Below, piece by piece: positions 35,302-62,790 of a stretch of 64,000 bases of DNA. The translations under genes were made by a program, and so were the position numbers. The DNA is from Cinnamomum chago (lineage: Eukaryota; Streptophyta; Magnoliopsida; Laurales; Lauraceae). The stretch lies in contig CP142451.1 of the NCBI GenBank assembly GCA_038049695.1, positions 43,535,001 to 43,599,000 on the forward strand. Reading direction: 5' to 3'. Every line of letters starts with the position of its first letter. The stretch's first letter is position 1. Below the pieces are notes generated by a model that saw nothing but the letters and a program-made list of their open reading frames with translations, was not told the origin of the DNA and ran no database searches.

Positions 35302-37344
35302 GTGAGAGATTTTCCTCTTCCTCCTCCTCCTCTCCCCTTCATTCGGAGAACAACTTATTGACAAGGATTAAACTTGTCTTTATGGTGGTGGGCTTGACTC
35401 TTCTGCTTACTGCTTTTGGGTTTTAATTGGGTTCATTAAAATCTGACAGTGATGGTAGATAATTTGTAAATTAAACCCCAAGGTCGACTAAAATCTGGTG
35501 TGTTTTTGCAGCGAGAGGTTTCTGCTCTATGCATATTTTCATTTCCGGGATAGAGAGGAATCCAGGATTCCTACCCCTCCCTCTCATATAGTAATTTGAA
35601 ACCTTCTCTGTTGGAAAAAAGTTCAGTTCATTTTTTTCCATTTCCACGAGAAAAATGCATTGTACCAAATGATGGAAAAAGGGGCTGCACGGAATTTCAA
35701 AACAATTCTCCTCTCTACTGAGGATTGCTCTCAATGCACAAATGCACCCTTATACAGCACTATGTGATTCAGCTTGAATTTTGTTGCAGAAGTTGAAAAC
35801 AATCATAGGTTCACTGGAAATTAAAGTGTACGCATTAAAAGCAGTTGGTTAAAACTCTAGAGTTTGTCTTCTCTCTTGGAATAATGGAAGTTCAATTGAA
35901 GATAACAGTCTGATGCATCAATGACTTTATAGGTTGCTATGGCATGGGATAGAACTGACATATATATGACTTGGAATGTTAAAAAGTTAGTTTGTTAGGG
36001 CCCATATCGTATCTACCTTTTCTGTATGCATAGAAAGATTTCAATGTTTCATGATCGTTGAAGTTATTTTCTTTCTTATTATTTATTCACAACTTACAGT
36101 TTTCAACCTAAATATTTGAGTATATTAATGCTCCAATGATGGCGATGCTCATAATGTGGTTCTCTGAAAACTCATACAATTCAATTCGATTAAAAAGATC
36201 TTCTACATTTGCATTTTCTATCAATGATTATGATGGTTTCAGTTTCTGGCTTTATAAGTTTTGATTTAGGGGGTAAGGATTTTTTACTTTTTAGCCCCCT
36301 ACTTTTCATGTCTTGCTCATTATCTTGTAATTTCGCGTCATTGAGAGTTTTTGGCTCGTTAGCATGATTAGTAACTTGGTCACAGTAGCAACAGCTTCGG
36401 AAACACTGCTTTCTGTCGTGTGATGGATCTTTCATTTGAGAATTATTGTTGGCGTGATTGTCTGGGATCACATTTTCATGATATGAACAATTTTATTTGG
36501 TAAATTACAATAAATAAAAGATCATATTCGATGTAGTTGGTGTTGTGGTTTTTTGACATCTTGATGAGACCAATTTTTTTGTTTCACTTCTTACATTAGT
36601 TTTCTAATAGATTTGTCAACATAGACAAAGAGAAGAAATTAGATCGTGGGGTTTGTTCTTTGCATCATATACAGTTGTGAAGTTTAATTATCTTGTTCCA
36701 TCGTAAGATGGAGTTTGGCTTAGATATTCTCCTTTAGTGGTGTAGCTCATGTTTTGCATGGTTTATGATTTTGGGATTTGAATAGCATAATGTTTATTGT
36801 TTTTGAGTGAAAATGTTGGTGTATGGTTTACTTCTAATTGAAGAGTTTCTGTTGTTTAAGTATGTATGTTACTCACTTCCATTTGAGGAGATGGGAATAA
36901 TGCCTTGTCGAATAAGTATGTACATGTACATATTTCCAATGTAGTATTTTTGTCTTGTGCTCTGCTTAATAAGATAACTTGAGTTTTCTTCGATTTCAAT
37001 TTCTTGAGTGTTGTAATTTCATAAATAAATAATAAATACTGAACGCAAGTACCATCAAATCTTAAATCGTTTACACAGGATAACAGCAGCATGGTCTTCT
37101 AACTTGACGCCTGAACCCCATCATAATATACTGGATCATAGAGTAAGGTGAAAACAATCATCATCATAATCAAAGCCTTGTCCCAACTATGTCCTTACTA
37201 ATTATAGGGCCAAGGTAGCGGAAAGAATCACTTCGTGGTATTGCATGGTCTTCAATTCTCACAGTAGTTTCAGCTCTTTCTATATGCCCACGGAAGTTAC
37301 AATTCATATACCATGAAAAAAAAGGTTACAATCCATATGTTCCA
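35302..37344 (+). other. Probable intron 1 of the GH17 gene (start)
   Basis: It begins with the donor GTGAGAGATTTTCC and continues AT-rich. No GH17 exon 2 sequence can be seen here or in the transposon-filled 26.7 kb to the right. No other exon or repeat stands out before the LINE at about 37,345. Confidence 0.5.
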
Positions 37345-38176
37345 TCTTTGTACGGCTTATTGGATTCGAAAGCCTCCCGCCACCTCTCGAGCTTTGCATT
37401 CACACAATCTCTTGATTCGTCTACCAACTCAATATCATCTGCAAATAACATGCACCAAGGTGCCTCTTCTTGAATATGAGCAGTTAACTCATCCATAATC
37501 AGTGCAAAAAGATAAGGGCTTAGGGCTAACCTCTAATGCAAATCTATAGTCACAGGAAACTCCTCTGTCTCTCCACAAGTAGTTCTTACATTCGTTACTG
37601 CTCCTTCATACATGTCTTTAATAATTTTAATATAACCTCTTGGACCATTCATTTTATTTCAAATCTACGAAATTAAATTTGTAAATACCTTGTCGTAGGC
37701 CTTTTCTAGATTTGATGAAGACCATATACAGATTTTTTCTCTTTGCTCGAGATTTTCACATTACTTGCCTAAGTGAGAAGGTAGCTTCCATTGTTGACTT
37801 TCATGGCATCAAACCAAATTGATTTTCAGATATCTTAGTCTTCTCTCTAAGTGTTTGCTCCATTATTGTCTTCCATATTTTCATAGTATGACTCATAAGT
37901 TTAATCCCATGATAGTTGGTACAATTTTGTATATCTCTCTTGCATGGATGAAAATATCGGCCGTTACATAGCGTAGCGGCCGACAAAATGTGAAATAGTG
38001 CCTTTCACATCCGTATCGGTGTGTATCGGCCGCTATTTACCCGTAGCGGCTGATACGCACCGATACGTTGCGTATCGGATGCAACGAGCTATATTTAAAA
38101 AAAAAATTGTTTGACTGGAGGAAGAAGATGAAGAATAAAAAGGAAGAGAAAAAAAATATAGAGAATAGATACAGGA

Positions 38177-38456
38177 TAACAATCGTGACATGCAAGAATA
38201 GCTTCTGAATTGTCAAAATTTGTGTTCCTTTACATTGGAGATTTCCTCCCATTAAATAGAATACAGATGCCTAATCAAAGGCTACAAATTAGCTAATCTA
38301 ATCTAATTACAATCTATTATTAATGAAAGAGACAAATCAGCTAATTACAATCTATTTAAAAGGAATAAAACTTGAGTAAATATTTGACCAAATCCAACGA
38401 GATTGGATTCCACCATATTGGGCCTAAATGGGCCTAAATGGTCTTTGTATTTGACA
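38177..38456 (-). repeat. 3' LTR of the young copia element
   Basis: 280 bp; lacks one 6-bp AATTAC unit found in the other LTR. It contains two tandem GGGCCTAAAT phrases near its right end (U3 on the minus strand). Confidence 0.95.
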
Positions 38457-38463
38457 CCCCCCC

Positions 38464-40084
38464 TCAAATTGATGCTGGGGAATCCACAAGCATCAATTTG
38501 CCAACCAAGAACTGATGACGAGGTCGCGGAAGTCCCTTTGTGAGGATATCGGCATTTTGAAGATCAGAAGGGATGTGAGGAAGGCTAATGACATCACGCT
38601 TGTATTCGTCGCGGATAAAATGGCAATCAATCTCAATGTGTTTAGTGCGTTCGTGGAAAACTGGATTGGCAGTAATTCGAATTGCACTAGTATTGTCTGC
38701 ATAGAGAGGAGTGACACTATCAGCAGGAAATCCGAGATCGGAAAGCAACCCGCGAAGCCAGAGAATTTCTGAACAAGCAGCAGACATGGCACGATACTCA
38801 GCTTCGGTGGAAGATTTGGAGACCTTATCTTGTTTCTTACATTTCCACGAGATCAAGCTATCTCCCAGATACATGCACCATCCTGTGGTAGAGCGACGAG
38901 TATCCGGACAACCAGCCCAATTAGCATCTGAGTATGCTTTGAGTGTTAGGGAATTGTTGGCCGGATAGAATAATCCACGGGTTGGTGTCCGAATTAGATG
39001 TTTAATAATACGTCGGACTGCAGCCAAATGAAGATGTCGAGGATCAGTCATGAATTGACTGACTAAATTGACTGCATAAGAAATATCAGGACGAGTTATC
39101 GTCAAGTAGATCAAGCTGCCAACGAGGCGACGATAAAGTGTAGGATCAGAGAGAGGATCCCCACTGTCTTGCTGAAGTTTAACATTGACTTCGATTGGAG
39201 TATCGACGGGAGCAGATCCTTGGAGTCCAGCCATTTCAATTAACTCGAGCATATTTATGTTGATGAAGTACGATGCCTTTTGCAGATTGATGAACTTCAA
39301 GACCTAGAAAATAGTTCAGAGGACCAAGATCTTTCATGTGGAAAGATTCATGAAGAGAGGCCTGAAGTTGGTGAATCATATCTGCATCGGTACCTGTAAT
39401 GATGATGTCATCCACATAAACAAGAAGAATAGTAATCCCCGTAGAAGTATGATGAAGAAACATGGATGGATCATATGGACTAGGATGAAACCCCAAGTGG
39501 CGAAGAGCATTGTGGAACTTTTCAAACCATGCCCTGGGGGCTTGTTTGAGGCCATAAAGAGAACGCCGTAGTTTGGCAACGGCACCGGTGATGATAGATG
39601 AAACCCCCTGAGGAAGGCGCATATAGACATATTCTTTAAGATCGCCATGAAGAAATGCGTTCTTTACATCCATCTGGAAGAGAGGCCAGGATTGGGATGC
39701 TGCGATGGCAAGAATAGTCCGAACAATTGTCATCTTTGCTACAGGAGCAAAAGTCTCCTCATAATCAATACCATATTCCTGCCGATTACCCAGAGCGACA
39801 AGACGGGCCTTATACCTATCCAGAGTTCCATCAGGTTTAAGCTTGATAGAATAGATCCATTTGCAATCAATTGGCTTAACTGAAGGAGGACACGGAACCA
39901 CATCCCATGTATGATTTTGCGCAAGAGCATCCAATTCATCCTGCATAGCTTTGTTCCAACACTCATGCTGCACAGCCTGAGAGTATGAGTTCGGAATAGA
40001 TGTAGAAGACATGGTGGCCATCAAGGAAGTGTGGGTAAACCTATAACGAGTTGGAGGCACTGAAATCCGAGATGATCGACGCAA
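38464..40084 (-). pseudogene. Copia reverse transcriptase and RNase H, one frame shift
   Basis: The RT frame (40,084-39,236) has WNKAMQDELDAL, WDVVPCP, KWIYSIKLKPDGT, FAPVAKMTIVRT, QMDVKNAFLHGDL, and the catalytic LLVYVDDIIITG. It runs out at 39,236 after HKYAR; the continuation LIEMAGLQGSAPVDTP is in the next frame, so 2 nt were lost or 1 nt gained near 39,247. RNase H follows with YSDANWAGCPDTRRSTTG, KSSTEAEYRAMS and the DNTSAI and HIEIDCHF motifs, ending at 38,464 just beside the polypurine tract. All catalytic residues visible in these motifs are present. Confidence 0.95.
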
Positions 40085-40914
40085 GGGAGGTCTCCAGTTG
40101 GACCAGATGTAGTTGGGCGATCGTTAGGGGGACTATCTATGTTTGCCGCATTACTCCGCCTATGATACACAAATTTAGGATCAAATTTAACAAATGGAGT
40201 TTTGTCCGAAAAATCAGGTAAGGAAACAACAGATGGGGACTCGACAGACTCAAGATATTGTTGGAAAAAATATTGATTTAAAAAAAAAACAACATTACGG
40301 GAGGTACGAATGCGCCGTATTTGAAGATCATAACAAAGAAACCCCTTTTGATGACTAGCATATCCAAGAAATGCGCATTTAGCAGATTGGGCAGTAAGTT
40401 TGTTACGCTCAGAAGGAGGTAAATGTACAAAACACACCGATCCAAAAACATGCAGATCATCATAAGACGGTGTAGTTTTGTATAATCGAGAAAAAGGACT
40501 CTCATTTTCTAAAGAAAAGGAAGGTAATCGATTTATAAGGTGGACAGCAGTGCTAAGAGCTTCTGTCTAAAAACGTGTAGGAACAGAGGATTCAATAAGA
40601 AGAGAGCGAGTAACATCAAGGAGATGTCTATTTTTTCTTTCAACGACCCCATTTTGCTGAGGGGTATAAGGACAAGATTTTTGAGAAAGAATTCCTTTTT
40701 GTTGTAAAAAGGTTTGAAACTCTGTAGACACATATTCACCTCCCGAATCAGAACGTAAAATTTTAATGCAAGTGGAAAATTGATTCTCAACATATGCTAA
40801 AAACATTTTGAAAACATGAAAGACATCAGCTTTAGAATGTAGAAAATAGACCCATGTAAATCTACTATAATCATCAATAAATGTCACAAAATATTTATAA
40901 TGAGCATGAGACAA
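40021..40914 (-). pseudogene. Copia integrase, one stop and a frame shift at its end
   Basis: The core begins with FVTFIDDYSRFTWVYFL (first Asp), continues with RSDSGGEY (second Asp) and GVVERKNRHLLD (catalytic Glu). A TAG at 40,568-40,570 follows PTRF, where copia integrases have Trp. After it the frame resumes through NRLPS, the FGSVCFVHLPPSERNKL stretch, and CAFLGYASHQKGFLCYD. A 1-nt shift near 40,088 separates it from RT. Integrase inserts the cDNA into the genome; here it would end early. Confidence 0.92.
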
Positions 40915-40929
40915 ATGAGGAGCAATACA

Positions 40930-42552
40930 TCAAACATCACTATGAACTAAATCAAAACATTGAATGCTAGTAGAAGTGGAGACAGAAAAATGAAGAGTTT
41001 TACTTTTTCCCATCTTACATGTAGCACAATCAAAGGAAACAAACTTAGAAAATCCTATTGAGTTTAACAATCCAGAATTAACCATGTGAGACATGGTTTT
41101 AAAATTAGGATGTCCAAGCCTACTGTGCCATAATTGACAATTATTTTGAGCTGAAAAACAAAAATCATTTGCTGAATTATTCCTAATTGGAGTAGATAGA
41201 TCAAGAGAAAACAAGCGTCCATTTTTAGGCCCCCTCGCGATCTCCCTCCCTGACATCTGGTCCTGCACAACACAACCAGAGGAAGAAAAGGAAACATTAT
41301 AGTTGTTTTCAACAAGTTGTCCAACGGAAAGAAGGTTTGAAATTAAATTGGGACAGTGATAAACATTCTTTAAGGGCAAGATACTGGAAATATCTCCAAT
41401 GGCAGTGATAGGAAGATGTCCGCCATCGGCTGTTTGAACATGAGCATTGCCAGTATATTTTGTCAAGCTAGAGAGTTGTGCACTGGAATGAGTCAGGTGA
41501 TTTGATGCTCCGGAATCAAGATACCAAATGGAAGAAGGGGTTTTAGATTTACCTGTGATGCCAAGTGCAGAAAAAGCATTGACGATCATTTGTTGAACCA
41601 ATTCGGGAGTGAGAGCAGGGGAAGAAGAATCAGGCTGTGAAGGCACAGATGTGGACGCAGCATGAGCAGGAGAATAGTCTACGTGAGCAGCATAAGCATT
41701 GGGAGTCCGAGTTTGTGGACGGCGGCGACATTCAGTAATGATATGTCCCTTCTTCTTGCAGTAATTACAGAACTTCTGGTTGCATTGAGTTGCAAGGTGT
41801 CCATATTTTTTGCAAGAGTAGCATTGGACTTTGCTCATATCACGAGTCTGAGGAGTCGGAGAAGACTGTGAGATCTGAAGAGATTGAGTGTTCCCTTTAG
41901 CTGAGTATGCAACATGATAGGTTTTAGTGTGCTTTTGTTCCAGATGGGCTTTTGTGCGAATGCGTTGTTCTTCTTGAAAAAGCTCATTCAAACAAACATC
42001 CAAAGATGGTAATGGGCTCCGGCTCAGCAGAGACGATGTTACAGTCTCATACTCGGGACGCAATTTCATCAAAAACTGGTCCCTGTGACTTGAGGCTTGA
42101 AGTTCTTGTATAGTTTTAAGAATATTGTTTGGAACAGAAGCATATTTAATCCCATCGTATTCACTCCACAGATTGCGGAAACCAGAATAGTAGTCCTGAA
42201 TGGTCAAGGTGCCTTGACTGTATTCTGCAATTTCACACTCAAGTTGAAATTATCGTGCAGAATTATCTTGATGATAAACTGTCTGCAAGTAACCCCACAT
42301 CTCCTTAGAGGTTGTATAGGGTTTGAGGTTCAGAATCAGATGAGGTTCCACAGCCCCAAGAATCCATGTTTTTATTTTTGCATCCTTTGTATTCCAAGTA
42401 GAAATCTTTTTATCATCCTCTGTAGGCTTTGGATCAGCACTAGAAACAAATCCCCATAATTCCTTGGCCTCAAGATATAATTGAAATTGAAAAGCCCATG
42501 CTGGGTAGTTTTTACCATCAAATTGAATCAATTTAACCTCAGACTTCTCCAT
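40930..42552 (-). pseudogene. Copia gag, protease and pre-integrase region, one internal stop
   Basis: It starts MEKSEVKLIQFDGKNYPAW at 42,552, a copia gag start. A TAA at 42,247-42,249 interrupts NSAR/FQLECEIAEY in frame. Further on come a CCHC zinc knuckle (CYSCKKYGHLATQC) and a second one (CNYCKKKGHIITEC), the protease motif WYLDSGASNHLTHS, and the pre-integrase zinc finger with WHSRLGHPNF and CATCKMGK. A TGA at 40,928-40,930 stands where Trp is expected after VHSDV. The two nonsense changes next to integrase are G-to-A on the coding strand. Confidence 0.93.
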
Positions 42553-42559
42553 TTGAGAA

Positions 42560-43622
42560 CCAAATAAAGAGAAGTAGACAATAAGAGGTTAATCCAACGG
42601 TGCACAACAGCAGACAGCAAAAAGGCACAAAAAAATGGTTCAGGCGACCTTAAAATTGACTGAAGATTCCTGGCGTGGGGCCCACGATTTGATCAAATGG
42701 AGAATCAGATCAATGAGATGCAAGCAATATCAAAATGTGTTTCCAGCAATACAAGTTTTACTAAAATCCATCCACAATCCAAGATTTTGTACGGCTGTGA
42801 TTAAAATGATATGATAAAGATGGAAAATCACAAGTGGGGTCCAAAAGCCTACCTCTGATCCCGAAAAAATGGTGAAAAAATTACCAAAAATATCAGCAGA
42901 GATGGTCGACCATGGCTGTAGAATTTCTTGAAGATGTCATGATGATCGCAGGGGGGCCACTGTTGATCATATCGTGACAGACGACTTTCTGTTTCCAATA
43001 ACCTCAGATCACTGATCTGGATGATGCCAAGATTATAAATCCTTGATCTGTGTGTCTGAAACACAAGATTATGTCTCCCAAGAGCAGTAGAATAAATCAA
43101 CAGCAGCAGCAGTATTGTAGAGAAGCAGCAGTAGCAATCTGATATGAATCAGATGTTCACAGAGACAAAAAAACAACCCAGACGACCTTCAGGATTGTGT
43201 TTGGATGAGCACGTGGAGTCCACAGAGGGATTGAAATGCAAATCAGGTGCAAGGTCTGATTGCCAGACTTAATTGTCTTCCTTGAGATGAAATCTGGTGT
43301 GCAGATTCCAAGGATCCAAACTTTTGGACGGTGGAGATGAAAACTACTGCCAGAAATGGGAAAATCACGAAATTGAGCAAATGGCCTACCTCTGATTGGC
43401 AAAAAATTGTGAAAAAATTACCAAAATTCCCTCCTGCAGTGGGCGACCAATACTGTTGAAGTTTCCAGTTGTGTTTGGATAATCACAAGTGGGCCACTGT
43501 TGAACGGCTATGATCAGCAGTGGATGAAAAGACTCTGAGATGTCTGAAACAGATCCTAGATCTGTTCTTTACTCCGGGAGAGGTTGATTCCTCTCAGATC
43601 ACTTGGAAGATTGCAAATTCTA
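42560..43622 (-). other. Untranslated leader of the young copia element
   Basis: About 1.06 kb between primer site and gag start. It consists of two similar halves (compare 42,640-42,900 with 43,175-43,440, which share TACCTCTGAT, TGGTGAAAAAATTACCAAAA-like and GTTGGGCCC-like phrases), as if duplicated. No ORF. Confidence 0.65.
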
Positions 43623-43634
43623 GCTCTGATACCA

Positions 43635-43920
43635 TAACAATCGTGACATGCAAGAATAGCTTCTGAATTGTCAAAATTTGTGTTCCTTTACATTGGAGAT
43701 TTCCTCCCATTAAATAGAATACAAATGCCTAATCAAAGGCTACAAATTAGCTAATCTAATCTAATTACAATTACAATCTATTATTAATGAAAGAGACAAA
43801 TAAGCTAATTACAATCTATTTAAAAGGAATAAAACTTGAGTAAATATTTGACCAAATCCAACGAGATTGGATTCCACCATATTGGGCCTAAATGGGCCTA
43901 AATGGTCTTTGTATTTGACA
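43635..43920 (-). repeat. 5' LTR of the young copia element
   Basis: 286 bp, with an extra AATTAC unit relative to the other LTR and two substitutions. It ends beside the primer-binding site TGGTATCAGAGC. Confidence 0.95.
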
Positions 43921-46538
43921 CAGGAAACATACCTGTCCTCACTCCAGCAATGGCAGCGGGCGGCGGTAGAGGTAGCAGCGGATGGCTGCGCAGAGGCGGT
44001 GGCAGAGGAGCGCCTCTTCTTCTTCTTCTCCTTTCTTTTTTCTCTTCCCCTTCTTGGTTTTTGTTGACCCTTGTGTTGGGAATGGTAGTAGGCACCAAAA
44101 CCCATTTAATTTCAGCTTTGGTTTTCATTCATTTCATTAGGGGCACTTAATGGGCCCTATTTAAGTTCTAAACAAAAAGTTAAATGGAGCGCCTCTTTTC
44201 TTTCTTGATTTGTGTGCATCAACCCCTAAGCCTATTTAATTTCAGCCCTGATTTTAATTCATTAGGGGGCACTTAATGAGCCATATTTAAGTTTCAAACA
44301 AAAATTAGATGGAGCCCCTCTTTTGTTTTTCGATTTGTGTGTGTCAACCCCCTCTTTTATTGAATCATTAGAGGGCACTTATGGACAGTTTGAAAGGCAT
44401 AAATAGAGGGCACTTATGGATAGTTTGAAAGGCATAAATTAAAATTAAATGACCCCTCTTTTATTTCATTAAAGGCCACTTATGGGTACCTTGAAGGTAT
44501 AAATAAAATTTAAATAAACCCTCTATAAAAATAAAACCTGAAGCACCTATTGCCTTTGACCATTGGTGGGCTCCACAATGGGGCCTAAATTTAAAAATAA
44601 AAAAGTCAAGGCTTAGCCTAATATTGCTTAATTGAAATCAAGGCCTTAGCCATATTTCACTCTACTTGAAAATAGAGCTCAATCAAATTTCACTCTTATT
44701 AGAAATAAGATCATAGCCTATTTTTACACTATTTGAAAATAGTGCTTAACCAAAGCGAACTCTAATAGGAAATAGGGCCTTATTAACCAATGGGCCATTT
44801 TCTCTCTAATAGGAAGTAGAGTCCTAATCAAATTTCTCTTTAACAGAAAAATTTCCCCCATATAAATACAACTGTGAAATGTGATATGCTAAGCGTGATA
44901 TGCTAAGCAACGGTATTGGTATTGGTAATATATTGATGACACCATTGATTATAAGCATTTTATTAGTTTTTAAGTTAACATAACTAAGCAACATAAATAC
45001 ATGTTAAAAAAATGATCATTACTATTATTTTCTATTCATATAGCGATACAGGATCTCATATAATGAGGGAACCTCTACACCCCCTTATTTAAGTTACTTT
45101 TGCAAAAAAAAAAAAAAAACATTTTCAATCATTTTTCAATATTCTGGATTTTCTAGAAAATTTTCATATTTTTTTGACGATTTTTTAACGTACCGCTACG
45201 TAGCGCCCGCTTCGTAGCGTTTTGGCGGTCCGCCGCTACCGCTATTTTCATTCTTGCTCCCTTGTTCTTATAAATAGGTACTACAACACTTCTCCATTCA
45301 TGTAGCATTTTCTTTGTCATTAATATCTTATTGAAGAGTCTAGTTAATCAGATCTCCCCAACTTCTCCTAAGCATTCCAAGCCTCAATCAGAATGTCATC
45401 TGGACCCGTAGCCTCTCCTGTCTTCATTTGTTTTAATGCTTTCCTCATTTCCACCATCCTAATTCTACGAAAAAAAATATGGTTTGCTATTGAAGTATCA
45501 GTTTTTGTTCTTAAGTCTCCTATATAGTCTTCATTTAACAGTATGCTAAAATAATCTCTCCACCTTTCTTTGATATCGTTGTCCTTCACTGGAACCTTTT
45601 GGCCGTTGCTCTTAATATATTTGACACAATCCAAGTCCCTTCTTTTCCTTTCTCTTATTTTTGCAAGCATAAAAATATCCATCTCTCCTTCTCTTGTTCC
45701 TAACCTATTAAATTGGTCATCATATGCTTTGCACTTTGCATCACTTACTACTTTCTTAGCTTCTTTCTTTGTCGCCTTGTATATCTCATAGTTTTCCAGA
45801 TTCTTAGAGCCATGCCAAACTTTGTAACAACGTCTCTTCTCCCCAACAGCTTCCTAACCTCTTCACTCCACCACCAGGTTTCTTTATTATCTTGTCTCTT
45901 CCCTTTCGACTCTCCAAGCACCTCTTTAGCAACCTTCCTAATACAGTTAGCCATTTGATTCCACATCGCTCTAGTTTTTCTTTCAAAATTCCATTCTTCC
46001 TCATCAATCATTCTGGCCTTAAATACTGTTGCTCTGTCTCCTTTCAAATCCCCCACCTTGTTTTAAGGCACATTTTATTTACTACACCTCTTTCTACCTC
46101 TAATGCACACTTGTAAAACTACTAGCCTATGTTGCATGGTCAAACCAAGGTTTTAAAACCCGGACTCAAGACTTGACTCGGGTCGGCCTGAGTCCGAGTT
46201 GACAAAAAAGAAAAAAGGGGAAAAAAATGTCTAAAAAATAGTGAAAGTGGATTGGCATTGCCTAATAGTCCTTCACTCCTTCAATCCATGTAGATAGTTT
46301 TACTCCTTTTATTCTTCTACGTTAACGATAGATTTTGTCATTTTTTTGGAATAATTCAATAAGACAAGCCATTTAATAATTTAATTGCAATTAAAACTTA
46401 AAAGTAGAAAAGACAATATCCACGTTCCAATTTCCAAATCAATTATCAACTAGTAAGATGTAGCTAAGTTTCAATTATAGCATATAAAAATGTAAAACCA
46501 TACCTTAGCTCTTTCTTTTTAAAATTTAAATTCTAATT

Positions 46539-47791
46539 CTATGTTGAATGCCTTGTGGGTTCTAGATCTTCATCATCGTCGTTATTTTGACTTCGACGAT
46601 AGTATTGAGCAATGTCAAAATGAAAGAACGCTTGCCCCGCTCTTGGAGTTGTAGGACCTTCTCCGTAGTTTGATGATGGAGCCATGACTTGGAATTGAGG
46701 ATATGCATATGGTGGTGGTTGTTGCACTTGCGGGGGGTACCACAAAGATTACATACTGTTGTTGCCCATACCCATGTGAAGGACCACCGTACCCACCATA
46801 TTGCTGCTGCTGCCCATACTCATACGAAGGATCATGGTGTGAGTGTCTATACTGTTGCCCATACCCATATGAACTATTAGAACTTGTGATCCAAGGACTT
46901 GATGCCATTTGCTTCGGCTGAGGATATTCATCCGATGGCTCGTTTCCTTCACCTCTGCCCCACCCACCAGCTGGCTTACTTGGACCACCATGTAACGGGT
47001 CATATACATTAATGTTGTCATCTCCACCACCACCACCACCACCACCATCACTACCTTCGTATGCCTCCTCGTTCTAGCCCTGATCACCCCCTTCTTGTGA
47101 GCCACTCTTGCTAGAAGATGATGTTTTGCGGCAGCGTTCTTCTTCTTCATGAGTGGCCAACCTTTGGCTTTGACTTTGAGTCTTTGCATGGGTGCTCTTA
47201 TCCTTTGACTTTCGCTTGTATTGGAGAGTTCGGTCTTTAATCCATTGTTTGGCTTTAGAGATGGGGCCACTTGAATTAGTTGAATGTGATGATCTATCTC
47301 TAGCCCCCGCAACATGCTCCGAAGTAGAACGTGTCAACTTTGGCTCACGGCTATGACCACGTTGTGAGCCTTGTGATGACGACGCCGCTACACCATTGCC
47401 CTCATCGCGTGCTGATGGCGCTGTAGAAGTAGGTGTAGGAGATCTGCGAGTGGGAGGTTGTGGTGGGGAATTATGTCCTTCATCTGACTGAAAGTCATGT
47501 ACATCAGCCATTGCTTCATTGAGGAATTTTGTATCATTCAATATTGGATCATCTCTTTTAGCCAATCATTCACCAAGAGGGTCATCTTCCTCAAATATAT
47601 AATCCAAATTAATTGGTTGGGAGTCTCCATTGTCTCTTCTCATTAGATTCCTTCCTTGTGTTGTAATGGACAAAGACCAACTTCCCCAACTTTTGCACAG
47701 TAAGGTGATTACGGGTCTTAGTGTGGATCAAACTGAATGTGCTCCAATTCCTTTCACATCCCAAAGATGAGAATGCTTGGCTTAATATTCT
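46539..47791 (-). pseudogene. hAT transposase, C-terminal part with Tyr/Gly/Gln-rich tail
   Basis: This is the continuation of the transposase beyond the solo LTR insertion. It opens with RILSQAFSSLGCERNWSTF, the C-terminal half of the hAT dimerisation domain, then IHTKTRN..LGKLVFVHYN. After a frame shift near 47,640 and a TGA at 47,566 comes a Ser/Thr/Arg-rich region, a run of Gly from a CCACCA repeat (47,023-47,046), and a tail with YGQQ repeats between 46,760 and 46,900. A stop at 47,072-47,074 and a frame shift near 46,748 interrupt it; the original end seems to be at 46,539. Extended low-complexity tails occur in plant DUF659-type proteins, but I cannot judge how usual this one is. Confidence 0.75.
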
Positions 47792-47796
47792 TTCTG

Positions 47797-50700
47797 TGTC
47801 ACGACCCAAATTCCGGGGCCCTATCGGATTTCTGGATCGTGATTATTTGGCAACATGCACCACACATTCATCAAATAACTTTCAGAAGGAATTAGGCATT
47901 TAGATCTAACTATAATTTCAATTAACTTGTAAAAGTCAAATAACATCAATAATCACTGAATAAGTAAAATTCCCATGTTTTGGCTCAAATCAATGATGTC
48001 TAAAACATTGAATAAAATTTCCTAAACAAGGGCTAATCCCTCTATCAATTAATTGAATTTTTCCTGCCTCTCTCTTTAGCCACGCATGCCGAAGTCTACA
48101 GGTTGAAAGTCGTTCTACTCTGGCCCACCCACAATGTGATCATCTGAATGGGGCAATACAACATCTGTAACATTGGGGAATGAGTTCTCCTAATCACCCA
48201 TACAACATAGAACATAACATCAAATAAAACATACAAGTCTAAATTAACAGGTCAAACACAATTAAAAGTCCATCCATTTAAAACTTCGCGCCCAGTGCAC
48301 ATTACTACGCCACCATGGCTAATCATACATGTTCACATGCCCCTTCTGGCATTAACTCGTTAACCGCGTCCACTAAGGACTTGCCAATACAACGGCCACC
48401 GTGGTCCAAATCCATAAATTATCCGGACACCAAGACCAACATCCTACATCTAGGATCCATTTTGCAATATTTGCTTACCATGTTCACCACCCTAAACATA
48501 TCATAAACATTGTAACAACCAGAAACTCAAAGAAATATCAACAACATACACAAATCAGCAGTGTGGACCCAGTCCCCTACACAATTTACTTGTCGCTGCC
48601 CCACTTCTAATCATGACTGGTAGTTATAGGTGTAGGGGTGGCCCACCCTTCATTATAAATAGAATATTACACAGCATCATTCCAAAATTCCAATAAAACA
48701 GTCCATACACTTAATCATAATCCACATAAAGCCTTATTTTATATAAGTGGGAGGGTTATATTATAGTTGCATACAAAGTCCAGGGGCTGCCCCAAATTAT
48801 AGACTCCTCCCAGGCCTCAACTACACACACAGCCTAAAAACAAGTAATCCATGCCTAAAACATCTTGGCATAAGGTGCAGTGGGTCCCACTGACCTAAAG
48901 CATGATCAGACCTACTCTCTAGGATCGCCTAGGGATAAGTTCTTATGCTAATGGATATGATTCATCATCAGACCACTCCCTAGGGCCCACAAATCAAAAC
49001 AATTACTAATGGGTTTCAAGCAATAATTCTTGCCTGAGAATTTTGTGGCTGTTAGATAGAGAAACAGATGGGACCTACTTCCTATGAGTCCACCATCACT
49101 AGGGTTGACCATGGGTCCCCTACAAGATGTGAGGTCCTGATCTTTGATCGGGTCAACCCTGTGACCCCACAAAGGCTGTTGACCTCAGCCCTGCCCATGG
49201 ATGAAAATATCTACGTAGCGGCCGAGCCCACCACGCTTCATAAGATTTATTGGGTATCGCACCCCATGGTGCCTGTAGCGGCCGCTACGCATGGATCGCC
49301 ACGTTTTGTAGCGCCAGCTACGACTCGGCTGCCCAAAAAATTAAAAAAATCTAGAGAGACCTAGAGAGATCGGACACTATTGTAGCATGCAGAACTGAAA
49401 TGTTAAAAAGAAAAGGAGCTCTATTTCACCAGAAGATGAACGAATGAAAAAAAAAAAAAAAAAAAAAAGACAGCAGATGGAGAAACGTACTTGGAACTGC
49501 AAGTAGCAGCAGCAGTGGCACCACTTTTCTTCTCCTTCTCCTTCTCTTCTTCTTCCTCTTTTCTCGATCCTTCTGTTTGGGAGAAGGAAGTAGGGCCATA
49601 AAAGCCTCTTTCAGTCCCTTCTTTATTTAGCTAGTAGGGTAAATAAGAATGGGCCCATATTGGGCTCCCCTTATGAAAGGTGTAACTAAAGATTAAATGG
49701 GCCCACAGTGGCTCACCTTATCAAAGTTATAAATAAAACTCAATTGGCCCCTCAGAAAAAATAAAGCTGATGCACCCAATGTTATTAGTTATTACCATTG
49801 GTGGGCTCCACAATGGGTCCTAAATATTAAAATAAAAAAATCATGGCTTCGCCAAATAAATAAAAATTAAGGGCTTAGCAAAATTTTACTCTAATTAGAC
49901 ATAGAGACCAATCAAATTTCACTCTAACTTGAAATAGGGTTATGGCCAATTTCACACTAATTGAAGATAGGCTCTAGCAAAGTTTTCTCTAATAGGAAAT
50001 AGGGCTCAACCAAATTTCATTTTAATAGGAGATAGGACTCTAACCAAATTACGCTCAATAGGACACAGTGGCCCAAATTAATTTTACTCTGATAGGAAAT
50101 AGGGCCCTGATCAAAATTTTCTTTAACAGAATATTTTAAACTATATATATATATTTCAAAATACAACTCAGAAATGTGATATTCTAAGCAATGATGGTGA
50201 TAATATTTTGATAACACTGATTACAAACATGAATATATGTGAAAAAAAAAGATTATTCCTACTATTTTCTATTCATACAGCGATACAGGACCTCGTACAA
50301 TGAAGGGACCGCTACGCTCCCTTATCTCAGTTACTTTTGCAAAAAAATAAATAAATACATTTTCTATCATTTTTCAATATTTTGGATTTTCTGTGATTTT
50401 TTTAGAATTTTTGCACGTTTTTTTTTTCAAAATGCGCCGCTACCCCGCTACTGCTATTTTCATCCTTGGCCCTACCTCCTACAAGTAATACGCCTCCTAG
50501 ATGTAAGTGCAACAAGATAGTGGACCAGATGGGTCCCACTCCATCTAAGTCCAGCACTAATATGGTCAACCAGCAGTACCCCACCAGATCTCCGGACCTG
50601 ATTTGGAATCAGGTGGGCCATGGGGTCCCACAATCCCAAACTCTGCATTCCTATGTTGACTTCAAGGGTTTTTTTTCATGAATCCAGATTGATGTTCAAA

Positions 50701-51330
50701 ATATTTGGAGATTCAAAAGAAAACAAACACCTGATAATCATGTGCCTATGATAATCAAGATTTACATGATCTCCATGACTCAAAATAGAGTCTATATCTA
50801 ATCCCTAATTACAAGAGAATTATTGAATACAATAGCATTGCGCAACAGTAAAGACATACCTTATTATCAATCATTCGAGTGAATAATCTAGGGTATCTAG
50901 GAAGATCCACTCACCTTCGATAGAAGATTTCCGCGTTCGCGATGTGAGGGCGCGAGTAGGATATCCGCTGATCGCCTTCTCACTGATTGCCTTCTTCTTC
51001 TTCTCCTAGATTTCCGGCCACCAAACTCACTCAGATTTTCTCTCAAGAAGAAGAAAATTGATACCAGAACTAATGGTCGATGGTTTGTTTATATACACAC
51101 TAGAGTCATTATTCTTCTCAAACTACTCTTAGAATCCTATGCAAATTGAACATATAGTCCTACTAATACAAGACACGCAGGACTCTCAATTGGAGTTGAG
51201 ATACAACTCCTAAATCATCCTAATACCAACCCACGTGGGACTCTTCCAATAAAATAAACAATATTCGAGGGTCCCACCTGGGCCATACTAATAATGCTAA
51301 TCCTGGGCCCAGGTGACTCTGGATATTACA
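47797..51330 (-). mobile_element. Large solo LTR inside the hAT transposase gene, family S2
   Basis: Read on the minus strand it runs TGTAATATCC to GGGTCGTGACA. Removing it joins the two halves of the hAT dimerisation domain (..LRAFAI and RILSQ..). The 5-bp flanks TTCTG and TATTG agree at three positions, so the insertion is old. Net of the nested hAT copy it is about 2.25 kb. An LTR of the same family begins at 59,789 on the opposite strand; both share TGTAATATCC, a CGCGAACGC segment and a GTGAGTG..ATC block. No gag-pol is present. Confidence 0.8.
49196..50468. mobile_element. Non-autonomous hAT element, family H1, copy 2
   Basis: 1,273 bp, beginning CATGGATGAAAATATC and ending TATTTTCATCCTTG, with flanks GCCCTGCC (49,188-49,195) and GCCCTACC (50,469-50,476), an 8-bp duplication with one change. 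Subterminal GTAGCGGCC-like motifs occur at both ends. The right half (CAGCGATACAGGA..CTC and TCAGTTACTTTTGCAAAAAA) matches 45,046-45,115 of copy 1, and the left-centre GCAGCAGC and CTTCTTCTTC blocks correspond to 43,950-44,040. It sits inside solo LTR S2. Confidence 0.9.
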
Positions 51331-51335
51331 TATTG

Positions 51336-53484
51336 CAAAAGCTCTTAGATTAGCCTCATCGCCAAATGTAGCCCACCATTCAGTTGTGTTAAAAAATCAA
51401 ATCAATAAAGTCAATTGTTTGTCATAATTCATAAATAAAATTCATATAGTACTATAATCAAATGAACGTTAAAGAAAAATAATTTCAAATAATAGTAGTA
51501 TTGAAATAATACCTGGATCCATCTTCTTACGACCCAATATGGCTGCATCTGATCCAAAACTACTAAGAGCGCCCTTGTAGTTTCTCAACTATAGAAGTCA
51601 AAATCTAAAAGTTAGTGACAAATTGATGAATAGCAATGTCATGTGATATGACATCTTACCTGGTTAAGAATTGTAACTTCTTGTTGCGGGTCACGTGTCA
51701 TGGTCTCTAAATTTTTTTTCAAGCCATGGAAAACTTCTTCATACTTGGAGAAGTGTTTGGTATAGAAGCAGCTTGGGTTCAAGTAGTACGCTGCATGCCA
51801 TGACGTCATTAAGTAATAGGTGTTGAATTCTAAAATAAGTAGTTACTTACTAGTTACTAGTTAGTATTTTTAGTAACCATGATGAAAATGTACTCATAAT
51901 CAAAATTTACCTGCCGCGTGTATGTCTTGATGCAATTGTCAATAATTTTCCAAAGCTTCTTATAATAAGTCCCATTCTTTGCTCTGGACCCTTGCTCTAT
52001 AGCAAGTTTTGCTCTATCCATGGCATCATACACAAAGCCCATTGTGGACTTCGTATCACCATCCACTAGTTTCAAGACCAAGACGAGCGAGTGAGTTAGT
52101 AGATCGTTCTGCCTTATTCTAGAAATCCTCTCCAAGGACAATCTGTTGTACATGGTGTGCCAAAGATTGATGTGAAAAATCTGAATTTACATATGCTTTC
52201 CTCGTCCACATTTGCATTGTGTGCTTTGGCACGACAATGACTCGCAAGGGCCACGGAATGCATAGCAAAGCGTGTGCTACCCGACCTCAGAATCTCATGA
52301 CCCTCATTCATTTCTCTTAGCAGATCGGTCATAAACTGATGGTTATAGATCAAAGATGTCACTATCTTTCCCTCATCAATATTATCACGGACATCATCTA
52401 ATTTGCTAACGTCCTCCAAAATGAGATCAATACGATGTGCCGTGCACGACACCCAAATAATACTCCCATTTTTTTCACGCAATTTCTTCGCCGCGGCCTT
52501 AAAGTTAGTCGCATTGTCCGTCACAATTGCAACAACATATTTGTGCCAATTTTTAATCATACACAAGGTATCATCAATCAAACTATACAAATATTGGGCA
52601 TGCATCCATTCTATGCCCGCTTGTATCTACAGACCTAATAAAAAATGTCCCACTACACAGTAAGCTATGAAGTTAATAATGTGCTGCCTATTGTTGCTTG
52701 TCCACCCATCACACATAAGCGTGCACCCATACTCTCAAGTTTTGAAGTGGTCTTCCAATAATCGTCACATTCCATATCAAGATACTTTCCGCCAATCTAA
52801 TAAACAGATGGAGGTTTGACTCCAGGCCCCACCTCAGCTATAGTATCAACCTTGGCTTGATAGGATGGGGAATTAGCAACATTTGGTGGAATCCTATTAT
52901 AATGGAAGAACTTTGAGATGGCTCTCCCCATTTTCATGGCTCTAGCTTTCATATCACCCATGATAGAGCTAGAAATCTTTGGTTGTTTCATACTTTGGGA
53001 CCTATGCAAGAATGAATCCAATGTCCCTCTCCTAGCTGTGTCCTTATAAGGGCCAGGAGGAGCTCCTGAAGAACCGGCCCCACCCCGTGTCTCTTCCATA
53101 CGAGCCTGCTCAGAAGCATACGCTCACGGCTCGCTCTCATAGCCCTCCTTAATTCCCTCTCCTCATCATCACCACCACCATCAGAGTCATCATCAGAACT
53201 GTCAATCCTCTGCATATGTGCAACCCTCTCATCAAATTTTTTCTTTCATTCTCACTCTTCTTTCCCTACAAGATATCTCTCATTTGTTTCCTCACTTCAG
53301 TGGGGACATTTGCACATGGTTTTGCTTCCCCTTGTATACCTTCTAGGTGGTGTTTAAATCTGTGGATCCCACCACTAAGAGTCTTATGACACCATTGGCA
53401 TTTGACCTTATGACGGTCTCCTGCAACCATCTACCCATGTTCCCATCCTGGATCAACTTCTTTCTCTTTATTTTTTGGTGCCAT
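51336..53484 (-). pseudogene. hAT transposase, N-terminal part (BED finger and DUF659 core)
   Basis: It starts at 53,484 with MAPKNKEKEVDPGW. A BED-type zinc finger follows (CQWCHKTLSGGIHRFKHHL, with Cys-x2-Cys and His-x4-His), interrupted by a TAG just before it. The catalytic core has the conserved AIVTDNATNFKAAAKKL and WVSCTAHRIDLILEDV. Further on FGDEANL precedes the solo LTR, the first half of the dimerisation domain. Several frame shifts occur (near 53,100, 52,800-52,600 and 52,130). The protein would bind the element ends and cut them; this copy cannot make a full product. Confidence 0.85.
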
Positions 53485-53934
53485 TGTGATCTAAGTGGCT
53501 TTAATCTGCACAGTCAAGATTCTAGATTTAACTTTAAGACAAGAAATGTTTAAAAAACATTACCCTAAATAATCTCATGCCAAAAACATAAGTAAATAAT
53601 GAAAAAAAATTCGGATTTCTTATTATTTTAAAAAAATTACATAATAATAATCAAGAAAATCACATTCTTTTAACCAAACAAGAGTTGAAATATCATCTAC
53701 AAGCATAACACACTTGTAATCATCTATTCTACACAATTTAATAATGTAAAAAAAAAACATATTATTAATAATTATTTTAACTAGAAAAAGTTAAGAAAGT
53801 ATTATTCTTGCACATACATGCATAGATCTAGGGTTAGAACCATAGATCCATGTTATACACCCAAAATAATAATCTCATGCAAAAAACATAAGTAAATAAT
53901 GAAAAAAAAAAAATTGGATTTCATATTTTTTCAT

Positions 53935-54738
53935 GTGTACCTTGTGATCATAACATAAAAATCCTTTTTGGTCATGTGCATATCCTAAGAAGGCACACTT
54001 AGAAGATTGAGTAGATAGTTTTGTTCGTTCAGCTGGAGGTAAAAGAGCAAAACATACACACCCAAATGTATGGAGATGAGAATAACTAGGCTGTTTTTGG
54101 AACAGACAAAAATAAGCTGTGCCATGCTGAATCTGAGGAGATGGTAACCAATTCACAACATGAACGGTTGTTGATAGGGCTTCAGGCCAAAATTTTGCAC
54201 GAACAGAAAATTCTAAGAGTAGAGAACGAACAATGTCCAAAAGATGTTTGTTTTTCCTTTCGGACACCCCATTTTGTTGTGGAATATATGGGCAGGTTTT
54301 TTGAGACATAATTCCTTTGTGTTGCAAAAATTTTTGGAAATCTTTAGAAGTATATTCCTCACCCGAATCAGTCCGAAGTGTTTTAATTGTAGTAAAAAGT
54401 GATTCTCAACATAAGCTAAGAAAATTTTAAAAGTTCAAAACACCTCAGATTTTGTATGTAAGAAATAAACCCATGTAAAACGACTATAATCATCAATGAT
54501 TGTAACAAAATACTTAAAATTGGAATGTGATATCACAGGTGCGATAACCCATACAGCACTATCCACAAGATCAAAACATTTCAATGATAAAGAAGTATGA
54601 TGGAAAAAGGAAGTGTTTTGCTCTTGCCCATTTTACAACTAGAACAATTAAAAGAAACATCGTTAAGGGAAACTTTATTATCAAGAAGCAAACCAGAATT
54701 AAATAAAAACAATAATGCTCTAGAATGGGGATGCCCTT
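53935..54738 (-). mobile_element. Old copia fragment (pre-integrase and integrase)
   Basis: On the minus strand, SSCKMGKSKTLPFS (54,600-54,660) is the end of the pre-integrase zinc finger, and 54,327-53,935 gives integrase with GVSERKNKHLLD (catalytic Glu) and KCAFLGYAHDQKGFLCYDHK. The first Asp region between them is frame-shifted. It is related to the young copia element but far more diverged. LTRs are missing, and its upstream side is cut at 54,738 by the copia LTR that follows. Confidence 0.8.
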
Positions 54739-56499
54739 TGTAGAAGATTATGGGCTCTGTAAAATAATGTTGAGGCCATATACAGCCTGTATATAATCCC
54801 ACACGTGGGATCTAGTCTCGGATTGTTTATGCTAATTTGTCTCATATTACTCACTTGTATAGACTAGGAGATTTTGTTTATTATTCTGATTTGCATTATT
54901 AGCATGTTTAGAGCCCTTGATTGAGGCATAATGAGAATATAAATATACACAGTTGATCCTCTATTGAGTTATCACTCTCTCCAAAACTCTCTTCTTCTTC
55001 TTTCTTCTCTCATTCCATATTATAACATGGTATCAAAGCTTTGGTTATGATCAATCCCTCATCTCTTATTGATCAAAAACCTATTCTGGCGTGAATCCTC
55101 TCTCTACTGCTGCTGATAGTGCCAGACGTGTCCCTTGATCAAAAGGGGCCCACCACTGATCAACTTATCACCAAGAGAACTCCACAGCTGTGATTGCTAG
55201 TCCTTAAGGGTTATTCTAAGGATTTTTTTGGATTTTTTCGTCACCATTTGAGGTAGGTTTCACACTCTTCTTCCCCTGTCAGTTTTGGTTGATAATTGTC
55301 AGACAGATTTCATCCGGACTGTCCAGATTTGTGGATCTGTATCAAATTCTCATCATATTTGGACCGAAGGAAGTAACTTTTAACTCCTTCAGGAAGTTCA
55401 ACCTTGATCTGAGATTAGACCATTTGGTGGGCCCCACGCACAGATCCCCTCTCTTTTGTAGTTCGTCTGGCACTATTTTGGTGAAAAACTGCACTGTTCT
55501 GTGCTGGTTGATGCTGGATTCTTCATCCACCACTCAATCTACCATCAAACTGCTGTATAAGCAGATTCATAGCAGATTCAATCACCTCTGCCTTCTGCTT
55601 CTTTGCACATTGACTGTTTTTCTTCATATCTGAGGGCTGATCTCCTTTCAAACTGCTGATTTGCGTACTTTCTTCTACATTCTGCAATGGACAAATATGA
55701 TGTCATCCCAATTAAATTTAACGGGCAGAATTATATGTTCTGGTCCTTCCATTTAAAGAACTTTGTAGAGGGACTGTGGCTTTTTGGTTATCTTGATGGA
55801 TCAATCACTAAGCCTCAGACTACAAGTACCACTGACTCAAAAAGCTTAGCCACCTGGTCCAAAGAAAATGCTAAAGTGGTCACTTGGATCCTTAACTCTA
55901 TTGATCCATCTCTTGCTTTGGCTCTTCAAGCCTACACTACTGCAGCTGATATGTGAGCTCATCTCAAGAAAGTCTATCATCAAACCAATAAGGCCCGGAA
56001 GTTTCACTTGGATAGTGAAATTGCTAAGTATAATCAAGGGGATAAATCTGTGCATGAATACTTTAATGGTTTCCTCACCTTATTGACTAAAAGGGATTCC
56101 ATGTTGATCCAAACAGTCTCTTTTGGATTTCTATCTGATGCTCTCAAGTTACAAGAAGAAACTCACATTAGCCAGTTTCTTATGAATCTACGACCAGAAT
56201 TTGAATCTGTCCGATCTGCCCTCATGAATAGAGAAAATTCTGCTAATCTTGATACCTGTTTTCAAGAAGTCCTTCGCGAAGAGCTTCGTCTCACCTCACA
56301 GCATACTATTATGGAAGAACCAAAAGCCTTCCTTGCGCCTCTTCCTGTTGACTCGGCTCTTCTGGCAACCCAAAATCCGAAGCTGACTTAATGTTATGAA
56401 TGCAAAGGCTTCTGCTATATTGCCAAAATTCCCGCAAGAAATTGGTTTGTAAATATTGCAAACGGTCTGGTCATCTTATTGATGACTGTCGCAACCTAC
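54739..56499 (+). mobile_element. Copia element B, 5' half only
   Basis: LTR 54,739-55,027 (TGTAGAAGAT...TTATAACA) is followed directly by the primer site TGGTATCAAAGC and a leader, then gag from 55,687. The element ends exactly where copia element C begins (56,500), shortly after the zinc-knuckle region. No protease, integrase or RT of this element is present in the window. Confidence 0.85.
55687..56499 (+). pseudogene. Copia B gag
   Basis: It starts MDKYDVIPIKFNGQNYMFW. A TGA at 55,954-55,956 replaces the Trp found in the sister copy (DMW in element C). The frame continues to 56,391 with FLMNLRPEFESVRSAL and LDTCFQEVLREELRL, meets a TAA, and then the first zinc knuckle is damaged by an indel (CYECKGF, then a shifted frame). 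gag forms the particle shell and binds RNA. Confidence 0.85.
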
Positions 56500-57411
56500 T
56501 GTAGAAGATAACAGGCCCAGCCCATGTGCCAAGCCCACTCGTGGGATAGACACAAATCTGTACATGATAAGATTTAGTCCCTAATTTCTCTCCTTCTATG
56601 TATAGGATATAATTGATTCTTTCCATTCTTTTGTTATTCTGATTGGTAATCCTTACTTAATTAGAGCCTTGATTAAGGCATCATATCAATATAAATATGA
56701 TAGTTGATGCTCTGTGTTGGCATGACTTTCTCCCACAATTTCTCTTCTTCTTCCTCTCCTTTCTTCATATATTATTACATGGTATCAGAGCCATAATATC
56801 TTGGAGACGTCATCTACATCATCTTGGCAATACAGATCACGCATCTGTGCCTTTTGGAAGCAAAAACGTGAGTGAAAACTCACTGTTTCTCATCGTGATT
56901 ATAGTGGCCCACCTGCGATGAGATCATCACAATATACACAAGTCTCTCCCCAGCCTTGGTCGCCCATCTCTTGTCTTTTTGAAGATTTTTTCAGAATTTT
57001 TCATAGATCAGAGGTAGGCCTTTTGATCCATCTTGTGATTATTCAACTTTCTGAAATTGTTTTCATCACAACCGCACAAAATCCTAGATTCTGAATGGAT
57101 TTTGATGCGACCTCCACTGTTGGAAAGGGATTTTCATCCTGGTTTCTAGCCTCATCTGATTATCAATCAGATCTCCTTGTGGGGCCCCATGAAGGGATCA
57201 AGCCATCAAAATCCAGTTCGTCTGGACTGTTTCTGGGCTGATTTTTTGCACCTGTGTGTGCTGTGTGCGTTTGGACACCTCATCCCCTACTATTGAAGTG
57301 TTGTCTTGGATCTGGGGGTGGTTTGAACTCCTCATCAACTATTGTTGGCCTGCTGATGGTTGTTTTTCTTCTTTAAATTGCTGCTGATCTTTCTTATCTT
57401 CTATTTCTGCA

Positions 57412-58222
57412 ATGGAAAAGTATGATGTTATCCCAATTAAATTTAACGGACAAAATTATATGTCCTGGTCTTTCCATTTAAAGAACTTCGTTGAAGGACA
57501 AGGGCTTTTTGGTTATCTTGATGGGTCGATCACTCAGCTACAGCCTACCAGTACCACTGATTCCAAAAACTTAGCCACCTGGTCCAAAGAAAATGCTAGA
57601 GTGATCACGTGGATCCTTAACTCCATTGATCCATCTCTTGCTGTGGCTCTTCAAGCCTACACTACCGCAACTGACATGTGGGCTCATCTCAAGAATCATC
57701 AAACCAATAAGGCCCGGAAGTTTCACTTGGGTAGTGAAAATTGCAAAGTATATTCAAGGGGATAAATCTGTGTAGTAATACTTTAATGGTTTCCTCACCT
57801 TATGGACTGAAAGAGATTCCATGTTGATCCAGACAGTCTCTTCCGGATTTCTATATGAGGCTCTCCAGTTGCAAGAAGAAACTCATATTAGCCAATTTCT
57901 TATGAATCTACGACCTGAATTTGAATCTGTCAGGTCGGCTCTCATGAATAGAGAAAATTCTGCTAATCTTGATACCTGCTTTCAAGAGGTCCTTCGCGAG
58001 GAACTTCGTCTCACCTCCCAGCGTACTATTCTGGAAGAACTAAAAGCCTTCCTTGCACCACTTCCCGCTGACTCGGCTCTTTTGGCAACCCCAACTCCGA
58101 AGCAGACTCAATGTTATGAGTGCAAAGGCTTCGGACATATTGCCAAAAATTGCTGCAAGAAATTGGTTTGTAGGTATTGCAAACGGACGGGTCATCTTAT
58201 TGAGGACTGTCGCAGCCTGTAG
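57412..58222 (+). pseudogene. Copia C gag with two zinc knuckles
   Basis: It starts MEKYDVIPIKFNGQNYMSW and is very similar to B gag. A small deletion near 57,695 (LKN/HQTNKA, lacking the KVY of B) and a TAG or frame change near 57,765 interrupt it. The downstream open part (57,821-58,222) keeps two CCHC knuckles, CYECKGFGHIAKNC and CRYCKRTGHLIEDC, and ends at TAG 58,220-58,222. Confidence 0.87.
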
Positions 58223-58498
58223 TGACGGAATGAGACACAGCCTAAGACGTCTCCCTCCAATCTGCCACGCCAGAATTTGCTTTCCGCGTTCTAGGCTCAT
58301 GCACCTTCATCTGATGCAGGAAGCACTTCATCTGGGGATGTATCCATGACTCCTGCTCATATTTAAAAACTGATCTAGAGCACGGTTACCTCTGCATATG
58401 CGTCTATGGGCTTCTCTGGCGGTCGGTATCAAACTCATTCTCATATAGCATCTCCAACTTTTCATTCCTTTGCCTCTCTTTCCTCTCCTATTACCTCT

Positions 58499-58937
58499 TC
58501 TACATGGTTTTTAGATTCAGGTGCCTCCAACCACATGACATCTGTATAACATAGTTTTACAGAGTCCCACCCGTACCTTGGAAAAGAGAAAATAACCATT
58601 GCTAATGGTGATCAACTACTCATTTCAGGAGTTGGTACCATTACTTTATCTAGTGTGTCTGGCCAGTCCATCACCCTTCCCAATGTTTACATTGTTCCTA
58701 AATTATCCGCCAATCTTCTTTCTGTTGGACAACTTATTGATGATGGCTATCTTCTTCACTTTTCCTCCTCTAGTTGTGTTATACAGGGGCGACAAACTGG
58801 GAAGGTGATCGCGACGGGAAGTAAACACGGGCGCCTGTTTTTGTTGGACATTGGACATCATTCCTTCTTTGCTGCTTCTTCTTCTAATGTCAATAAATTG
58901 TGGACTGTTTGGCATAGACGTCTTGGTCATGTGATCT
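58499..58937 (+). pseudogene. Copia C protease and pre-integrase start
   Basis: TWFLDSGASNHMTS contains the aspartic protease Asp-Ser-Gly triad. A TAA follows shortly at about 58,547. The frame continues with ITLPNVYIVPKLSANLLSVG and the pre-integrase WHRRLGHV, where similarity to copia ends. Confidence 0.85.
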
Positions 58938-59788
58938 ATCCATCAGGTGGTTAACCTAAAACAATACATTGGATGGTTATTCCGGAACATACATCGAGGA
59001 TTAACCCAGGACAATCAATACATTGAGATGCAGCCCGGAACAATCATAAACCAATACCGATCTACAGTCGTAACCAATCCATCTATCAATCTATAGTCCT
59101 CCCAAAGAGGTGCCCTTCTGTGTTGGATGTTAACAACTGAGTGGCGCTTGGCACAAGAATCTTAAGACAATCAATGAGGGCTGGACTTATCCTGCCTGAA
59201 CAAGATTCCGCAATCATGAGGGGAACTACTTTTCCATCAATCATTCAATCACTCCAATCAATCAATCAATCGATTCAATCATTTTCAATTTCCACGATAG
59301 CTCTAAGCTGTTACAATCAAGGCCGCCTAGTCTCATCACGCTGATCACTACCGATTATAAGGACTTGGTCTGGGCGGCAACCTTAACCATGGGGCGCAGC
59401 ATGTCAACCAGGGGCTTCAAACGGTGAGTCTCCACTAGCCCACATCGAAAATATCCAAGTCCTGACCTTGGGCTTACAAGTCAAATTCCGTCTTAACATG
59501 ATGCGTTTTAAAACAGCGCGGCCTCGGAAACCGTAAGAACTCTGAAGTTAAGCGTCCTCGAGCAGGAGCAATACTAGGATGGGTGACCTCCTGGAAAGTT
59601 TTTGTGCGCGCATGCCAAAGCGAAGCGGGGCGGGGCGGCGACATCGATGACAATCAATGGGGGTCCTATGTTCAATTAATCTATGCCCTCAATATGATCC
59701 CGACAATATAAAATAATATAAATCTATAGAGCTTGCACGAGCCATGTAGACGCCAATAACAAGACAATACAATTCAATCCCGTTCAGT
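58938..59788. mobile_element. Cassandra-like sequence containing 5S rRNA-derived stretch
   Basis: No ORF. The segment 59,430-59,615 contains CCCACATCGAAAATATCCAA and TGGGCTTACAAG phrases of the kind found in Cassandra TRIM LTRs, followed by a 5S rRNA-like stretch. Exact element ends and a second LTR were not identified, so a complete Cassandra cannot be claimed. The left part (59,220-59,280) has an AATC microsatellite. Confidence 0.55.
59526..59615 (+). ncRNA. 5S rRNA-derived sequence with internal promoter boxes
   Basis: GAAGTTAAGCGT (box A region) and ACTAGGATGGGTGACCTCCT (box C region) are kept in the order and spacing of plant 5S rRNA, with scattered substitutions elsewhere. The first 30 or so nucleotides of 5S are not recognisable and no T-run terminator follows. 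It is therefore a retroelement-borne or decayed 5S sequence, not a functional rRNA gene. Confidence 0.8.
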
Positions 59789-62751: not shown

Positions 62752-62790
62752 GTTTGCTTCATTTCGATCATTTTGCCAAGTTTTAAAGCA

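Follow-up and report, generated by a model that had tools for sequence, protein, structure and literature searches.

Nested transposons occupy positions 37345 to 54738 of the window, the 64,000-nt stretch of Cinnamomum chago DNA analysed here. On the left lies LINE-A, present as a 3' part (37191-37942, minus strand) and an upstream part, as far as present (45257-46145, minus strand). Between the two sits H1c1, a non-autonomous hAT-like element (37943-45256) that holds a copia element (38177-43920, minus strand). On the right, a BED-type hAT (46146-53936, minus strand) holds an LTR-like insert without an internal part (47797-51330, minus strand), which holds H1c2 (49196-50468), the second copy of H1; no strand is assigned to either H1 copy. 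Of the five nestings claimed in a preliminary description of this DNA, four hold and one is unproven. All element comparisons were made against copies inside the window.

Beside the hAT lies a copia fragment reaching from the integrase to the SH3-like domain (53937-54738, minus strand, edges by eye; SH3_retrovirus at 70 bits). Its positions 53946-54659 are 70% identical to 40326-41041, within a local alignment covering 53878-54702. It is followed at 54739-58950 (right limit by eye) by two consecutive copia 5' parts whose LTR-like starts, TGTAGAAGAT, were placed by eye at 54739 and 56499, and whose gag portions are 88% identical. A 5S rRNA-like sequence at 59500-59615 scores 40.8 bits, just above the Rfam cut-off of 38, and may be what remains of a Cassandra-type element carrying 5S sequence. 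Elsewhere in the window, 21395-22037 and 31848-32512 form a direct repeat (665 columns, 91% identity), and 25533-25813 is a tandem array of a 53-base unit in 5.2 copies with 92% matches.

LINE-A, H1c1 and the copia element

The 3' part of LINE-A contains the RT core and beyond. By tblastn matches with pieces of LINE-B it extends to at least 37191, and judged by eye it may go on to about 37156. The left limit of 37345 given in the preliminary description falls within LINE-A; the DNA match extends to 37294 and the protein match to 37191. The upstream part is defined by tblastn matches at 46143-45853, 45829-45377 and 45383-45258, the alignment with LINE-B reaching up to 46143. LINE-B itself (60915-64000, minus strand, left end by eye) runs off the window and served as the empty-site copy. 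When LINE membership is judged by an endonuclease together with RT, LINE-A offers RT parts only, with RVT_1 in its 3' part at 21.8 bits, under the cut-off of 29.6. Its upstream part is without the endonuclease part, and the two ORFs of at least 100 aa scanned there have no Pfam match. In LINE-B, Exo_endo_phos is above its cut-off (29.4 bits) and RVT_1, at 23.8 bits, is below that of 29.6. We label both elements putatively RTE-like. They are 67.8% identical over 566 columns in the left part, LINE-B being a diverged copy. Positions 1-106 and 63895-64000 form a direct repeat with 96% identity, the window opening within a further member of the LINE-B family and closing inside LINE-B.

The termini of the two H1 copies can be defined independently of any duplication, as CATGGATGAAAATA on the left and, on the right, TATTTTCATTCTTG in H1c1 or TATTTTCATCCTTG in H1c2. 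These boundaries and the flanking duplications are directly established. H1c1 is flanked by CTCTCTTG (37935-37942) and CTCCCTTG (45257-45264), H1c2 by GCCCTGCC (49188-49195) and GCCCTACC (50469-50476). As expected of hAT elements, both thus carry an 8-base target duplication, matching at 7/8 positions in each case, and terminal inverted repeats, identical at 12/14 bases in H1c1 and 13/14 in H1c2 when counted on the end strings. Among 391,748 position pairs drawn at random from the region, 264 agree at 7/8 or better. H1 yielded no transposase. In their right parts the copies are 70% identical over 726 columns, and their left ends have just 16 bases in common in a local alignment. If long gaps are made cheap, a global alignment pairs identical bases at 895/1097 positions, a figure flattered by the gaps. 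H1c1 and H1c2 are related by their ends and right part, though they are not close copies.

The preliminary description placed H1c1 within a LINE and proposed that the layers be checked against empty sites. For this layer LINE-B directly provides the empty site, although it is a diverged copy, and the placement holds on this site and the 7/8 duplication. LINE-A rejoined at the H1c1 boundaries given above aligns to LINE-B through the junction, gap-free there, with a score of 139. Among 2,025 cuts (45 x 45) the best score is 143; it is shared by four cuts, one of which retains the right rather than the left copy of the duplication. A join that retains both copies scores 131.

The copia element has LTRs at 38177-38456 and 43635-43920, and its reading frames are broken into pieces. 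Its boundaries, too, are directly established by the sequence CAGGA at 38172-38176 and 43921-43925, a 5/5 match reached by 0.14% of random pairs. Six ORFs were scanned separately. Five of them carry domains above cut-off (gag, zinc knuckle, Pol_BBD, gag_pre-integrs, rve, SH3_retrovirus and RVT_2), and the ORF at 38467-39303 carries none. Sub-cut-off matches to Peptidase_S8 and rve_3 on these ORFs were set aside as chance. The integrase precedes the reverse transcriptase, the latter is of the RVT_2 type, and the LTR pair is accompanied by a 5-base duplication, all of which identify a Ty1/copia element. One transition and one transversion in 280 sites, together with one 6-base gap, separate the LTRs (K2P 0.0072). 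Because the LTRs differ at just 2/280 sites, the insertion is recent. Rates between 1.5e-9 and 1.3e-8 substitutions per site per year would put its age at 2.4 to 0.28 million years.

The claim that the copia lies within H1c1 is borne out by the 5/5 duplication and by H1c1 itself, which aligns to H1c2 once the copia is removed. Around the junction this alignment scores 77, as compared with a maximum of 40 in 200 shuffled runs, but the zone is A-rich and gappy, and base-wise shuffles flatter its score. In a 30 x 30 scan of cuts the cut at the copia boundaries scores 70 and other cuts score up to 77. The H1c2 comparison thus supports the copia layer but not a base-exact junction, which is fixed by the 5-base duplication.

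The BED-type hAT, its LTR-like insert and H1c2

On the minus strand the BED-type hAT displays, in this order, zf-BED (26.8 bits), DUF659 (56.4 bits) and the dimerisation domain Dimer_Tnp_hAT. All of them are above cut-off, the last one on the joined flanks of the insert. No Pfam match was detected in the ORFs at 51860-52186 and 52800-53123; a sub-cut-off match to Herpes_US9 at 46752-47333 was set aside as chance. The element was not found to have both termini with an 8-base duplication. Its limit at 53936 is approximate, the right end not having been found. It is treated as truncated, and its hAT label comes from its protein only. In its 5' region, beside the copia fragment, 53568-53628 and 53868-53931 form a direct repeat of 64 columns with 87.5% identity.

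Removal of 47792-51330, i.e. the insert plus one copy of its flank, directly restores a single frame reading ...AFAI|RILSQ.... On the joined flanks Dimer_Tnp_hAT scores 33.3 bits (cut-off 21.4; one join scored). The C-terminal half alone scores 21.1 bits, just below the cut-off, and the N-terminal half gives no match, although with 22 residues it is hardly long enough for a match of its own. The earlier proposal that an LTR entered the hAT, and that its removal rejoins the dimerisation domain, is thus upheld as to the location of the insert.

The insert is probably a solo LTR, as the same proposal has it. It measures 2253 bases after subtraction of H1c2 and one copy of the H1c2 duplication, and runs from TGTAATATCC to GGGTCGTGACA on the minus strand, so its TG...CA ends fit. 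A relative of its 5' half lies at 59878-60316 (score 108; at most 56 in 100 shuffled runs), while for its 3' half no relative was found in the stretch tested (score 43 against a shuffled maximum of 48). However, its flanks, TTCTG and TATTG, match at 3/5 positions only, a level reached by 11.8% of random pairs. For solo LTRs in wheat the published rule demands a 5-base duplication in which no more than one base differs (PMC4290129). The insert fails this rule, and we therefore call it LTR-like. These flanks, and the lack of an internal repeat that could be a second LTR, would also fit another kind of insertion. We consider this improbable in view of the TG...CA ends and of the related stretch at 59878-60316, which lies behind a TGTAATATCC start at 59789 (by eye). 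The insert would rather be a solo LTR, formed by recombination between two LTRs. The LTR-like sequence to which the related stretch belongs occupies 59789-60914; it begins with TGTAATATCC, is kin to the insert over 59878-60316, and is interrupted by LINE-B at the 3' end of the latter (both limits by eye).

H1c2 lies within the LTR-like insert, as had been described. The evidence for this is solely its own 7/8 duplication; the related stretch at 59878-60316 does not span the H1c2 site. The statement that every layer can be peeled off with its own duplication applies to both H1 copies (7/8) and to the copia (5/5), but not to the BED-type hAT, for which none was found, or to the LTR-like insert, with its 3/5 match.

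The border between LINE-A and the BED-type hAT

The fifth nesting, that of the BED-type hAT within the same LINE, is the unproven one: on the far side of the hAT the searches yielded neither LINE sequence nor a right terminal repeat nor an 8-base duplication. The preliminary description itself names no duplication for this layer. LINE sequence was sought with 13 LINE-B pieces of at least 40 aa by tblastn against the whole window, at E up to 0.01. LINE-A protein matches start at 46143 and end at 37191. A 402-residue LINE-B piece has its endonuclease (residues 76-229) in residues 1-298, which lie upstream of the LINE-A match. At E 0.01 these residues have no match from 46144 to 60900; they match only LINE-B itself and window positions 1-105.

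The searches for the right end of the hAT are also negative. With up to 2 mismatches allowed, the window contains no inverted partner of the 16-mer at 46146 (CAAGGTTTTAAAACCC), nor do four shorter patterns have one to the right of 46170. The short patterns did match at 5570, 16251, 21040, 41092 and 41703, but these sites fall within the copia or to the left of the element and were rejected. Local alignment of the left end with 53480-54800 yields a score of 20, at chance level (shuffled 95% level, 22). No second copy of GGTCAAAC occurs within one mismatch in 53400-54900.

It has to be considered, then, whether the LINE holds both hATs in one nest, its 5' part beyond the BED-type hAT having been lost later, e.g. 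when the copia fragment at 53937 joined on. With the LINE match ending at 46143 and the presumed hAT end, CAAGG, beginning at 46146, the border looks as an insertion would leave it and speaks for one. Set against the missing endonuclease sequence between 46144 and 60900, and the hAT right end and duplication that were not found, this leaves a single nest with slightly less than even odds. LINEs are usually truncated at the 5' end, and LINE-A may alternatively be a 5'-truncated copy that abuts the hAT by chance, in which case the stacks would be unordered relative to each other. No LINE was found on the far side of the hAT as far as 60900, as such a truncation would have it, yet a truncation would only by chance leave the border no more than 3 bases away from the presumed hAT end. 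CAAGG as the hAT end is itself presumed, and we regard a chance abutment as a tentative possibility.

Insertion order and comparison with known systems

The reading that we favour, with a probability of about 0.85, is that of two transposable-element stacks side by side, each step being an ordinary insertion. In one stack LINE-A would have come first, to be entered by the non-autonomous hAT-like H1c1 and then by the copia, which inserted into H1c1. In the other the BED-type hAT would have received an LTR retrotransposon, of which a lone LTR remains, and this in turn H1c2. All steps would be cut-and-paste or copy-and-paste insertions with target duplication.

The nesting thus yields two separate orders, LINE-A before H1c1 before copia, and BED-type hAT before LTR before H1c2. 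Because a second side is lacking for the hAT in the LINE, these are two chains and not one time order, and they are linked only if the hAT sits in the LINE. The single relative order drawn up for all layers therefore has to be divided. Its assertion that the copia is the youngest agrees with the LTR divergence (K2P 0.0072), but the other layers have no dates of their own, and nothing dates H1c2 or the LTR-like insert relative to the copia.

The BED-type hAT resembles the BED/DUF659 type of the hAT superfamily in its order of zf-BED, DUF659 and Dimer_Tnp_hAT, and H1 does so in its 8-base duplications. Unlike that type, the BED element has a broken gene and H1 no transposase that could be found. 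The H1 duplications presumably do not fit the Ac-type consensus. The copia at 38177-43920 is like Ty1/copia in having gag, zinc knuckle, integrase and RVT_2 in copia order, with a 5-base duplication, but its LTRs have TG...TA rather than TG...CA ends. This variant of LTR ends is already known, although a literature search on TG...TA ends found no paper.

Both H1 copies in the window sit inside other elements. H1 might represent an undescribed non-autonomous hAT family with a bias towards older transposable elements as insertion sites, and would then mark relative ages in the genome; we consider this a long shot.

On wheat chromosome 3B nested insertions number 30,199, stacked as many as 8 layers deep (PMC4290129), and 12 plant genomes have 1491 nested LTR pairs (PMC6911290). 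The nests described there resemble the present one in elements within elements, solo LTRs and duplications marking the borders. The difference lies in the three elements per stack found here, and not in kind.

Nests of this sort are common in plant genomes, and the present one resolves no open question. It is a clean small case of insertion order read from nesting, and it shows how such an order can be overdrawn where the host element lacks one side.
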